This document shows, one piece after another, positions 4,542 through 8,054 of a DNA stretch of 64,000 nt. A model generated the notes under the pieces. That model was given only the letters and a program-made list of their open reading frames with translations, did no database searches and was not told the DNA's origin. The stretch spans positions 744,001-808,000 of the forward strand of contig NZ_CP114013.1 of NCBI RefSeq assembly GCF_028416635.1. Reading direction: 5' to 3'. The stretch's first letter is position 1. Each line of letters starts with the position of its first letter. This DNA comes from Baekduia alba. Lineage in GTDB: Bacteria; Actinomycetota; Thermoleophilia; Solirubrobacterales; Solirubrobacteraceae. The translations under genes were made by a program, and so were the position numbers.

Positions 4542-6122
4542 ATGGGTCGCTACGACGAGCTCCGCGAGCAGCACACCTGGAACGTCCCCGAGCGCTACAA
4601 CATCGCTCAGGACGTCTGCGACAAGCATCCGCGCGACAAGCTCGCGATGGTGTGGGAGCGCTTCGACGGCGAGCGGCGGGACCTGAATTGGGGCGAGCTG
4701 CAGGACCTCGCCAACCAGGCGGCGCACGTCCTGCGGGACCATGGGGTCGACTCGGGCGAGCGCGTCGCGGTCGTGCTCCCGCCGACGCCGGAGACGGCCG
4801 CGGTCTTCTTCGGCGCCTGGAAGTGCGGCGCGATCCTGCTGTCGATGTCGGTGCTCTACGGCGACGACGGCATCGCGCACCGCCTCGACGACTCGCGGCC
4901 GCGCGTCCTGATCACCGACGCGGCCAACGCCGACCGCTTCCGCCGGCACGTCGGGACGACGGTCGGCGAGCTGCTGGTCGTCGACGAGGGCGACGGCCTG
5001 CTGACCGGCGCGCCCACCGACCACGTCGCCGCCGACACGTCGGCCGACGACCCCGCCCAGCTCTACTACACGAGCGGCACGACCGGCCTGGCGAAGGGCA
5101 TCGTCCACGCCCACCGCTACCTGCTCGCCCACGAGGAGTTCCTCTACTGCCACGAGGTGCAGGACGGCGAGCGCTTCCACGGCATGGGCGAGTGGGCGTG
5201 GGCCGCGGGCATCGCGCCGCTGCTGGGCCCGTGGCGCCTCGGCGCGGTCCAGGTCGTCCTCCAGCGCGAGGGCGGCTTCGCGCCGGCCCAGCAGCTGGAC
5301 TTCCTGAGCCGCCACGCCGTCACCAACGTCTTCACGACGCCGACCGCGATGCGCTCGATGATGGCCATCGAGGACGCCGGGACCAAGTACCCCAACACGT
5401 TCCGCCGCGTCTGCTCGGCCGGCGAGCCGTTGAACCCCGAGGCGATCCGCTGGTTCCGCGAGCAGTACGGCCTGACCGTCCTCGACTACTACGGGTTGAC
5501 CGAGTCCTACCCCTTGGTCGCCAACTACCCGTTCCAGGAGGTGCGCGAGGGGTCGATGGGCCTGCCGATGCCCGGCTGGGACGTCCGGATCCTCGACGAG
5601 GACGAGAACGAGGTCGCGCGCGGCGAGCGCGGCGAGATCTGCCTGCGCGCGCGGTCCAACCCGCACTACCCGCTCGGGTACTGGAACAACGACGAGGCGG
5701 CGCAGGAGGCCTTCGGCGGCGACTGGTTCCACACCAAGGACGCCGCGACCCAGGACGACGACGGCTACGTCTGGTACGCCGGCCGCGCCGACGACGTGAT
5801 CATCGCCGCCGGCTACCGCATCGGCCCGTTCGAGGTCGAGTCCGCCTGCATCGAGCATCCGGCGGTGCGCGAGGCCGCGGCGGTGGCCTCGCCCGACGAG
5901 CGCCGCGGCTCGGTGGTCAAGGCCTTCATCGTGCTCGCCGAGGGTCGCGAGCCGTCCGACGCCCTCGCCGACGAGATCAAGGCCTTCGTCCGCGACCGCC
6001 TCTCGGCCTACGCCTACCCGCGCCGCGTCGAGTTCGTGGCCGATCTGCCCAAGACGCTCACAGGCAAGATCCGTCGCATCGAGCTGCGCGAGCGGGAGGC
6101 AAAGGCGGCCAAGGCGGGCTAG
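4542..6122 (+). CDS. AMP-forming acyl-CoA synthetase (medium-chain/benzoate-CoA ligase-like)
   Basis: A 526-aa ANL-superfamily ligase activating a carboxylic acid as acyl-AMP and transferring it to CoA. YYTSGTTGLAKG is the ATP-binding loop, YYGLTESYP the A5 region, and PKTLTGKIRR the C-terminal catalytic-lysine motif. Start ATG 4542 begins MGRYDELREQH after a GAGG; an earlier in-frame ATG at 4506 adds twelve unlikely residues. The sequence resembles ACSM/benzoate-CoA ligase relatives more than acetyl-CoA synthetase, but the substrate cannot be read from the sequence. It lies 37 bp after the acetyltransferase gene in the same direction and could be another target of it. It meets the epimerase gene tail to tail with a 4-nt overlap. 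Confidence 0.85.
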   Translation: MGRYDELREQHTWNVPERYNIAQDVCDKHPRDKLAMVWERFDGERRDLNWGELQDLANQAAHVLRDHGVDSGERVAVVLPPTPETAAVFFGAWKCGAILLSMSVLYGDDGIAHRLDDSRPRVLITDAANADRFRRHVGTTVGELLVVDEGDGLLTGAPTDHVAADTSADDPAQLYYTSGTTGLAKGIVHAHRYLLAHEEFLYCHEVQDGERFHGMGEWAWAAGIAPLLGPWRLGAVQVVLQREGGFAPAQQLDFLSRHAVTNVFTTPTAMRSMMAIEDAGTKYPNTFRRVCSAGEPLNPEAIRWFREQYGLTVLDYYGLTESYPLVANYPFQEVREGSMGLPMPGWDVRILDEDENEVARGERGEICLRARSNPHYPLGYWNNDEAAQEAFGGDWFHTKDAATQDDDGYVWYAGRADDVIIAAGYRIGPFEVESACIEHPAVREAAAVASPDERRGSVVKAFIVLAEGREPSDALADEIKAFVRDRLSAYAYPRRVEFVADLPKTLTGKIRRIELREREAKAAKAG

Positions 6123-7069
6123 AGCCCTTCGCGGAAGCCGACGCGCCAGCTCGGCCACCGCGGCTCGAAGCCGAGCACGCGGCGCGCGCGGGCGTTGGAC
6201 GCGCCGCGCGACGCCGTCATCATCGTCACCGCGACCTCGCCCGCCGCGAGCTTGCCCAGCCAGGCCGGCACGCGGCGCGGCGGCTTGGCGCCGATCGCTT
6301 CCGCGAACGCCGGGATCCAGTCCGCGACACGCACCGGCTCGTCGTCGACGATCGCGAAGATGCCCTGCGGGCCGCCCGGCTCCAGCGTCGCGACCACGGC
6401 GCGCGCCGCGTCGTCGATGTGCGTGAACGACCACACGCCGCCGCCGTCGCCGATGATCGGCAGGCGACGCTTGGCGATCAGGTCGGTGATGTCGCCGCGC
6501 GTGCTCATGCTCGTGCCGGGACCGTAGAACCCGCCGTAGCGCAGGACGACGCCCTCGATGCCGTGCGTCGCGCGTGCGTGGGTGACCATGTCCTCCAACT
6601 CGCGGATCGCGGCCAGCGACTCGCGCTGCGCCTTCGGCGGATCCGTGTCCAGCGGCGCGTCCTCGTCCTTGACCGCCCCGCCCTCGCGCGCGAACGGCCA
6701 GCCCGTGTAGGACTGCACGATGATCCGGCGCGTGCCGGCCGCCCGGCCCGCGTCCAAGAGGTTGCGCAGCCCCTCGGTCCGCAGCCGGTTGGTCGTCGCG
6801 AACACGCGGTCGAAGTGCTTCATGTCGGTCGCGCCCGTCAGCGCCGTGAGCTGGTGGACGATCACGTCCGGCTCGGCGCCCCGGACCGCGCCCATGACCG
6901 CGTCGAGGTCCAGCGCGTCGGCGACGACCGGCATCGCGCCCAGCTCGCGCAGATGACCGGCCTTGGCCTCCGTCCGCGTCATCGCCACGACCTCGTGGCC
7001 CTCGTCGAGCAGCATCGGCACCAGCCGCTGCCCCACCGCACCTGTTGCACCAGCGATAAGGGTTCTCAT
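6119..7069 (-). CDS. NAD-dependent epimerase/dehydratase family protein
   Basis: A 316-aa extended short-chain dehydrogenase-type protein. The N-terminal Rossmann motif is GATGAVGQRL. The usual YxxxK pair is not obvious in the active-site region (IIVQSYTGWPF), so the reaction is unassigned. Group ECF41 sigma factors are typically encoded beside a carboxymuconolactone decarboxylase, oxidoreductase or epimerase-type gene, and this gene is divergent from exactly such a sigma factor. A matching promoter lies at 7080-7106, ending only 10 nt before the start codon, so the mRNA would be leaderless or nearly so. It is probably the regulon partner of that sigma factor. Confidence 0.85.
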   Translation of the reverse strand: MRTLIAGATGAVGQRLVPMLLDEGHEVVAMTRTEAKAGHLRELGAMPVVADALDLDAVMGAVRGAEPDVIVHQLTALTGATDMKHFDRVFATTNRLRTEGLRNLLDAGRAAGTRRIIVQSYTGWPFAREGGAVKDEDAPLDTDPPKAQRESLAAIRELEDMVTHARATHGIEGVVLRYGGFYGPGTSMSTRGDITDLIAKRRLPIIGDGGGVWSFTHIDDAARAVVATLEPGGPQGIFAIVDDEPVRVADWIPAFAEAIGAKPPRRVPAWLGKLAAGEVAVTMMTASRGASNARARRVLGFEPRWPSWRVGFREGL

Positions 7070-7079
7070 GGGGCCCTGA

Positions 7080-7106
7080 GACGAAACAGCCGTTGCGGGC
7101 GTGACA
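7080..7106 (-). promoter_or_regulatory. predicted ECF41-type promoter for the epimerase gene
   Basis: Reading the minus strand: TGTCACG (7106-7100), 16-nt spacer, CGTC (7083-7080). This matches the group ECF41 consensus as I recall it (TGTCACA-N16-CGTC). The -35 is one half of the 14-bp palindrome at 7100-7113. The expected start of transcription is around 7072-7074, with the start codon at 7069. Confidence 0.75.
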
Positions 7107-7133
7107 TGTCACGCCGAGAAGGGCAAGATCGTC
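7107..7133 (+). promoter_or_regulatory. predicted ECF41-type promoter for the sigma factor gene (autoregulation)
   Basis: TGTCACG (7107-7113), 16-nt spacer (7114-7129), CGTC (7130-7133). It is the exact mirror image of the epimerase promoter about the axis 7106/7107 and uses the other half of the same palindrome. The expected start of transcription is about 7139-7141. It implies the sigma factor controls its own gene. Confidence 0.75.
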
Positions 7134-7157
7134 TTCGAGCACATGACGGAATCGACG

Positions 7158-8054
7158 ATGCTGACCGACCTCCGCCCGCTGGTGTTCTCGATCGCCTATC
7201 GGATGCTCGGCTCGGTGGTGGAGGCGGAGGACATCGCGCAGGAGACGCTGCTGCGGGCGCACCGCGAGCTGGCCGACGGCACGCAGATCGCGTCGCCCAA
7301 GGCCTACATGACCGCGATCGCGACGCGGCTGTCGATCGACCACCTGCGCTCGGCGCGCGTGCGCCGCGAGGCCTACGTGGGACCGTGGCTGCCGGAGCCG
7401 CTGCTCACGCGCGCGGGCGCGGACCCTAGCGTCGACCTGCCGGCCGACGCCGAGCTGGCCGACGACCTCTCGATGGCGTTCCTGCTCGTGCTCGAGCGCC
7501 TGACGCCGGTCGAGCGCGCGGTGTTCCTGCTGCGCGAGGCGTTCGACTACACCTTCGCCGAGATCGCCGAGGTGGTGGACAAGAGCCCGGACAACTGCCG
7601 GCAGATCGCCGCGCGGGCGCGCCGGCACGTGATCGCCGAGAAGCCGCGGTTCGAGCCGTCGGCCGCCGCGCGCGAGTCGCTGGCCAAGCGCTTCCTCACC
7701 GCCGCCCAGGAGGGCGACATGGAGGGGTTGGTCGCGATGCTCGCCGACGACGCGGTCTTCACCGGCGACGGCGGCGGCAAGGCGACGGCGTTCCCGGCCC
7801 CGGTCATCGGCGCCGAGAAGATCGCCCACGCGCTCCGGGCGATCTTCCGGCAGGCGGCGGTCGCCGACGGCATCACGGTCACGCTCACCGAGGTCAACGG
7901 CATGCCGGGCTGGATCGCGCGCGAGGGCGACGGCCGCGTGATCGTCGTGATGGCCTTGGACATCCTCGACGACCACGTGCTGGGCGTGCGGTCGATCGTC
8001 AACCCCGACAAGCTGGGGCACCTCGGCCCGGTCAGCGATCGGGCCCGGCGCTAG
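7158..8054 (+). CDS. ECF sigma factor, group 41 (SigJ-like) with fused C-terminal regulatory domain
   Basis: A 298-aa RNA polymerase sigma factor. Region 2 covers about residues 8-75 (SIAYRMLGSVVEAEDIAQET) and region 4 about 105-160. A SnoaL-like domain occupies about 170-290. The three hallmarks of group ECF41 are present: WLPEP (77-81, linker), DGGGK (204-208) and NPDKL (282-286). In this group no separate anti-sigma factor is known; the fused domain controls activity. Start ATG 7158 has a GGA 7 nt upstream. ATG 7143 is an alternative giving an almost leaderless message. An upstream GTG at 7101 is excluded because it lies in the -35 element. Overlaps the HAD gene by 4 nt, tail to tail. Confidence 0.93.
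   Translation: MLTDLRPLVFSIAYRMLGSVVEAEDIAQETLLRAHRELADGTQIASPKAYMTAIATRLSIDHLRSARVRREAYVGPWLPEPLLTRAGADPSVDLPADAELADDLSMAFLLVLERLTPVERAVFLLREAFDYTFAEIAEVVDKSPDNCRQIAARARRHVIAEKPRFEPSAAARESLAKRFLTAAQEGDMEGLVAMLADDAVFTGDGGGKATAFPAPVIGAEKIAHALRAIFRQAAVADGITVTLTEVNGMPGWIAREGDGRVIVVMALDILDDHVLGVRSIVNPDKLGHLGPVSDRARR

Follow-up and report, generated by a model that had tools for sequence, protein, structure and literature searches.

Genes at the locus

The window is a stretch of 64,000 nucleotides from Baekduia alba, corresponding to bases 744,001–808,000 of a one-contig genome of 5.86 Mb. It contains a sigma factor gene and an epimerase gene that are transcribed divergently (Table 1). The sigma factor scores above the curated cut-offs of TIGR02957 (SigX4) and PRK09636 (SigJ) and matches the Pfam models Sigma70_r2 (1e-15) and Sigma70_r4_2 (2e-12). 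It resembles SigJ of Mycobacterium tuberculosis (structure 5xe7) over its full length (E = 7e-44), including the fused C-terminal domain. The SnoaL_2 match within this domain (residues 182–254) is barely above the cut-off, with a score of 27.5 versus 27. The divergent gene belongs to the Pfam family Epimerase (6e-24).

Wecke et al. 2012 (PMC3426412) define ECF41 sigma factors by a WLPEP motif in the linker and by a conserved extension at the C terminus, roughly 100 amino acids long. The protein in the window has sigma2 and sigma4 domains, the WLPEP linker, and a C-terminal extension, and its gene has an epimerase gene as a neighbor. The neighbors that mark the group are genes for a carboxymuconolactone decarboxylase, an oxidoreductase, or an epimerase, so the divergent epimerase is of the right kind. 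An earlier note, made from the DNA alone, had named the flanking genes as an ECF41 sigma factor and an epimerase. The profiles agree with this, as do the motifs WLPEP, DGGGK, and NPDKL, all of which are visible in the translation.

Table 1. Features of the divergent locus, in window coordinates.
Feature	Position	Strand	Basis
NAD(P)-dependent epimerase/reductase gene, predicted target	6119–7069	-	Profile matches
Predicted -10 (CGTC), epimerase promoter	7080–7083	-	Pattern match; spacer fits the profile
Predicted -35 (TGTCACG), epimerase promoter	7100–7106	-	Pattern match and consensus (PMC3426412)
14-bp palindrome CGTGACATGTCACG	7100–7113		Two inverted TGTCAC hexamers, 0 bp between
Predicted -35 (TGTCACG), sigma factor promoter	7107–7113	+	Pattern match
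Predicted -10 (CGTC), sigma factor promoter	7130–7133	+	Pattern match; spacer fit weaker
ECF41 sigma factor gene, fused C-terminal SnoaL-like domain	7143–8054	+	Profiles, motifs, and structure match

Two outward-facing promoter motifs

The 73-bp intergenic region between the two genes holds a 54-bp site, GACGAAACAGCCGTTGCGGGCGTGACATGTCACGCCGAGAAGGGCAAGATCGTC (7080–7133; read directly from the window). TGTCACG-N16-CGTC runs outward from the palindrome on both strands, at 7106–7080 (-) and at 7107–7133 (+), and the two -10 elements face outward with 46 bp between them. These are the only two matches to the motif in the window, against an expectation of 0.08, and 100 dinucleotide shuffles of the window never gave two. 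The mirror-image arrangement around one palindrome that the earlier note described is exact. The palindrome is single-copy in the window, even if up to 2 mismatches are allowed. The whole genome contains 7 single matches to the motif, versus 0 for a reversed control pattern. From the base composition, 4e-6 zero-gap pairs would be expected in a genome of 5.86 Mb, and divergent pairs with gaps of 0–30 bp are expected by chance about 1e-4 times per genome of this size. We rejected a chance motif on the strength of the shuffles and the reversed control.

The ECF41 promoter is defined as TGTCACA-n16-CGTC by Wecke et al. 2012 (PMC3426412), which is the consensus that the earlier note had used. Compared to TGTCACA-N16(+/-1)-CGTC, both sites match 6 of 7 positions of the -35 and 4 of 4 positions of the -10, with a spacer of N16. 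The seventh position of the -35 is G at both window sites instead of the published A; G is also found in 13 of 40 comparable sites.

According to the same paper, the partner gene is the ECF41 target in Bacillus licheniformis and in Rhodobacter sphaeroides, and the sigma factors activate such promoters. Also, among 55 divergent ECF41/COE loci, the motif was found before the sigma gene in 36 and before the COE gene in 41, so divergent dual promoters at ECF41 loci are already known (PMC3426412). The locus in the window resembles those loci in its sigma group, the class of its epimerase partner, its -35/-10 motif and spacing, and its divergent layout. On the other hand, the distance between the promoters, a shared palindrome, and competition are not described in the parts of that paper that were searched.

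Distribution of divergent pairs of predicted promoters

As a first test of whether the sites are promoters, we searched 1,066 distinct genomes from the window's phylum with a pattern that considers only the DNA (GACG-N17-GTGACA-N0..30-TGTCAC-N17-CGTC). Divergent pairs were found in 20 of these genomes (21 loci, 20 distinct sequences), and the reversed control pattern had 0 matches in the 1,066 genomes. In every one of the 20 distinct sequences, an ECF41-type sigma gene lies no more than 1.5 kb from the pair, and most of these sigma genes are directly adjacent to it. At the pair loci of more distant relatives, the sigma genes match the SigI/SigJ models.

The distance between the -35 and the -10 was preset by this search. 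In a second test, we selected loci by protein similarity and considered any distance from TGTCAC to CGTC near the sigma gene. The protein-selected loci have a distance of 17 nt almost throughout; the count, with eight loci found by the pattern included for comparison, is 43 of 49. The earlier note had placed an ECF41-type promoter ahead of both the sigma gene and its partner, and this is supported by the motif pair's tracking of ECF41 genes in 20 of 20 sequences. As judged from these patterns, the sites at 7080–7133 are very likely two ECF41 promoters.

The genome has seven good matches to ECF41-like sigma factors, and the promoters at 7080–7133 could be open to any of them. At the ECF41-like loci at 2.11 and 5.23 Mb, the motif is upstream of the partner gene, and the sigma gene comes next on the same strand.

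Several other arrangements were seen. At four loci, dual ECF41-type promoters separate a SigI-like sigma factor from a different sort of partner, which is an ABC-transporter ATPase at three of them and a glyoxalase-family protein at the fourth, so the partner is not always a COE enzyme. At three loci, the dual promoter is flanked on both sides by epimerase-like genes that are transcribed away from it, and the ECF41 sigma gene is downstream of one of these genes. At five divergent ECF41/epimerase loci, the start codons are only about 27 bp apart (with the starts extrapolated from homology), the TGTCAC box of the epimerase falls within the sigma reading frame, at about +8, and the sigma gene has no visible TGTCAC box.

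The palindrome as a probable pair of -35 boxes without a gap

The gaps between the promoters in the 20 sequences were 0, 0, 6, 6, 6, 9, 9, 10, 10, 11, 11, 12, 12, 12, 12, 16, 19, 20, 24, and 30 bp. Because the gap can be anything between 0 and 30 bp at a constant -35/-10 distance, we read the palindrome as the zero-gap case: it is two inverted copies of the predicted -35 hexamer with nothing between them. Ten of the 20 gaps are at 9–12 bp, which is perhaps one helical turn, although this was noticed post hoc and some of the species are related. A Rayleigh test for helical phasing of the 20 gaps gave p ~0.06.

Among the 1,066 genomes, only the window's species and a single sister species (G270) have the zero-gap palindrome. 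The sigma factors of these two species are 85% identical, and the epimerases are 69% identical. The sister species retains both -35s, both -10s, the zero gap, and the 12-bp core GTGACATGTCAC, but its palindrome differs in the outer base pair. In a third species of the genus (G298), the gap is 10 bp, and in the genome G314, the partner and sigma genes are in tandem. The earlier note had proposed a search of relatives for the palindrome and the symmetric spacing. The paired CGTC is kept, but the palindrome itself is absent from the homologous loci outside these two species, so one of the outcomes that the note had named as refuting its idea was seen in part. The palindrome is not a conserved device of ECF41 loci, as it is limited to two sister species and the -35s of the other loci are 6–30 bp apart.

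Perfect inverted repeats such as this one of 14 bp, placed between divergent genes, are also a classic layout for an operator, so we considered whether a dimeric transcription factor might bind the palindrome and regulate both genes, with the spacing to CGTC being incidental. The spacing of the half-sites should then be fixed, but it takes values between 0 and 30 bp, and it is the distance to CGTC that is constant, at 17. Also, the sister species does not keep the palindrome's outer base pair, and the motif pair follows ECF41 genes and not any single family of regulators. We consider an operator to be very unlikely, and we rejected it because of the half-site gaps of 0–30 bp across homologous loci.

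Another possibility is that the sites are two ECF41 promoters whose zero gap has no function: it would be one value among short gaps that are loosely distributed, in an intergenic region that is compact, and the promoters would fire independently at natural levels of expression. Only one pair of sister species has the zero gap, and given gaps of 0–30 bp among the relatives, a uniform model predicts 0.65 zero-gap cases in 20 sequences and a probability of 0.48 for at least one. However, the zero gap was kept in two species whose sigma factors and epimerases have diverged to the identities given above. Furthermore, in 173 genomes (146 from the window's family and 27 from another order), pairs with gaps of 0–30 bp are found in 13 genomes, and no pairs with gaps of 31–60 bp are found among these same 173, so closeness itself is perhaps under selection. 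We consider the chances that the zero gap is functionless to be about even.

The contrast between 13 genomes with gaps of 0–30 bp and none with 31–60 bp suggests that dual promoters are closely packed as a rule. Such packing may come from the shortness of the intergenic regions, or proximity may have been selected for.

Promoter spacers and predicted leaders

As a third test, we built a 17-position profile of the spacer from 36 sites, leaving out the zero-gap species; these positions had not been used in the search. Compared to random 17-mers from the window, the spacer of the epimerase site is in the top 0.7%, and the spacer of the sigma site is in the top 17% (the sigma site of the sister species is in the top 2.5%). 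The further preferences of the profile are C at 18, T at 19, and T directly 5' of CGTC. The epimerase promoter fits the profile better than the sigma promoter does, which suggests that the split favors the enzyme. Between the window's species and its sister, the epimerase-side spacer (7084–7100) is identical despite the epimerases' 69% identity; on the sigma side, 5 of the 17 spacer positions differ.

Transcription from ECF promoters generally starts about 7–10 nt beyond the -10, here CGTC. The ATG of the sigma gene (7143) is 9 nt after its CGTC, and the ATG of the epimerase gene is 10 nt after its own, so if the starts lie in this range, both mRNAs would be nearly leaderless, beginning at the start codon or a few bases from it, with predicted starts near 7141–7143 (+) and 7069–7072 (-). 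The earlier note had predicted a nearly leaderless mRNA for the epimerase. The short layout was confirmed, but it is not a trait of the epimerase alone, as the sigma mRNA has the same layout. A distance of 8–11 nt from CGTC to ATG on the sigma side recurs in most of the other loci, while on the epimerase side it is mostly 28–39 nt. So, by these distances, the predicted short leader of the epimerase is the unusual one, and it coincides with the zero gap. The starts that were mapped by Wecke et al. give leaders of 22 and 23 nt (PMC3426412), which is another difference from the site in the window. A second in-frame ATG of the sigma gene, at 7158, is also kept in the sister species, so the start codon of the sigma gene is not certain.

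Possible competition between the promoters

Holoenzyme with the sigma factor from 7143–8054 would transcribe the sigma factor's own gene rightward, which would be positive autoregulation, and the epimerase gene leftward. Where the -35s touch, polymerases that face in opposite directions would most likely exclude each other, because each holoenzyme would cover the -35 and the upstream contacts of the other promoter. Mutual exclusion at the touching -35s is plausible on these grounds. It is probably not specific to the palindrome, given that pairs with gaps of 31–60 bp were absent from the 173 genomes. The intergenic region would then be a fixed divider of one sigma signal: the ratio of epimerase to sigma factor would be constant, and self-activation would be capped.

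We compared exclusive and independent promoters with a simple model. If E is the holoenzyme, then the exclusive occupancies are KeE/(1+KeE+KsE) and KsE/(1+KeE+KsE). By algebra, the ratio of the outputs is Ke/Ks at any E in the exclusive model, and it drifts to 1 at saturation if the promoters are independent. In a computed example with a three-fold weaker sigma promoter, the self-activated level was 4.3 units with exclusion versus 17.1 units with independence. The exclusive layout had a single steady state in every case that we computed. With a constant ratio and lowered self-activation, the layout would divide the signal and brake it, but would not act as a switch.

The earlier note had instead proposed a built-in ratio switch, in which the relative output of the promoters shifts with conditions. 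Mutually exclusive binding is plausible, and an additional activator or repressor on one side could tip the balance. However, the same holoenzyme serves both promoters, so exclusive occupancy would hold the ratio constant at every level, the computed cases had only one steady state, and a site for a second regulator was not identified. We do not favor the switch and think it very unlikely.

Competition of this kind has a precedent: at bidirectional promoters in E. coli, competition for polymerase between opposed starts was demonstrated by Warman et al. 2026 (PMC12825309), and it appears at high activity only. If the same holds here, the weight of competition would depend on promoter strength. 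As in E. coli, where a single polymerase binds at once (PMC12825309), one compact element would give rise to divergent transcripts. The window site would work like these bidirectional promoters, yet it is outside their class. Members of that class share a symmetrical -10 and have starts about 10–23 bp apart (PMC12825309). The window site has neither of these features; instead, its -35s abut, about 70 bp separate its predicted starts, and a single ECF sigma factor would serve both directions.

In the literature on divergent promoters with overlapping or shared -35s, we found nothing nearer than the papers on bidirectional promoters. The zero-gap form, packing within 0–30 bp, and competition were not found in the literature searched, which was mostly without subscription papers and so is weak evidence of novelty.

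Overall, we think it fairly likely that the locus has divergent, back-to-back ECF41 promoters that share one sigma signal, that probably exclude each other, that act as a fixed divider, and that yield near-leaderless mRNAs. It is more doubtful that, throughout the phylum, the two promoters of divergent ECF41 loci are held to a distance of about 30 bp or less for the sake of exclusion, with the divider being selected and the palindrome being its limiting form; we suggest this only tentatively.

Implications for the control of ECF41 sigma factors

The pairing of the two promoters was known, and only the tightness of their packing is new here. To our knowledge, ECF41 sigma factors act without a separate anti-sigma protein, which raises the question of how their self-activation is restrained. 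If the promoters are independent, then this locus is nothing out of the ordinary, just a compact case of an arrangement already known. If abutting promoters do exclude each other, then the layout limits positive feedback and fixes the ratio of enzyme to regulator without the help of another protein. The gaps of 0 to 30 bp that occur in nature are ready material for testing this. The main interest of the locus is as a testable natural design by which a sigma factor's self-activation would be limited with no need for an anti-sigma protein.
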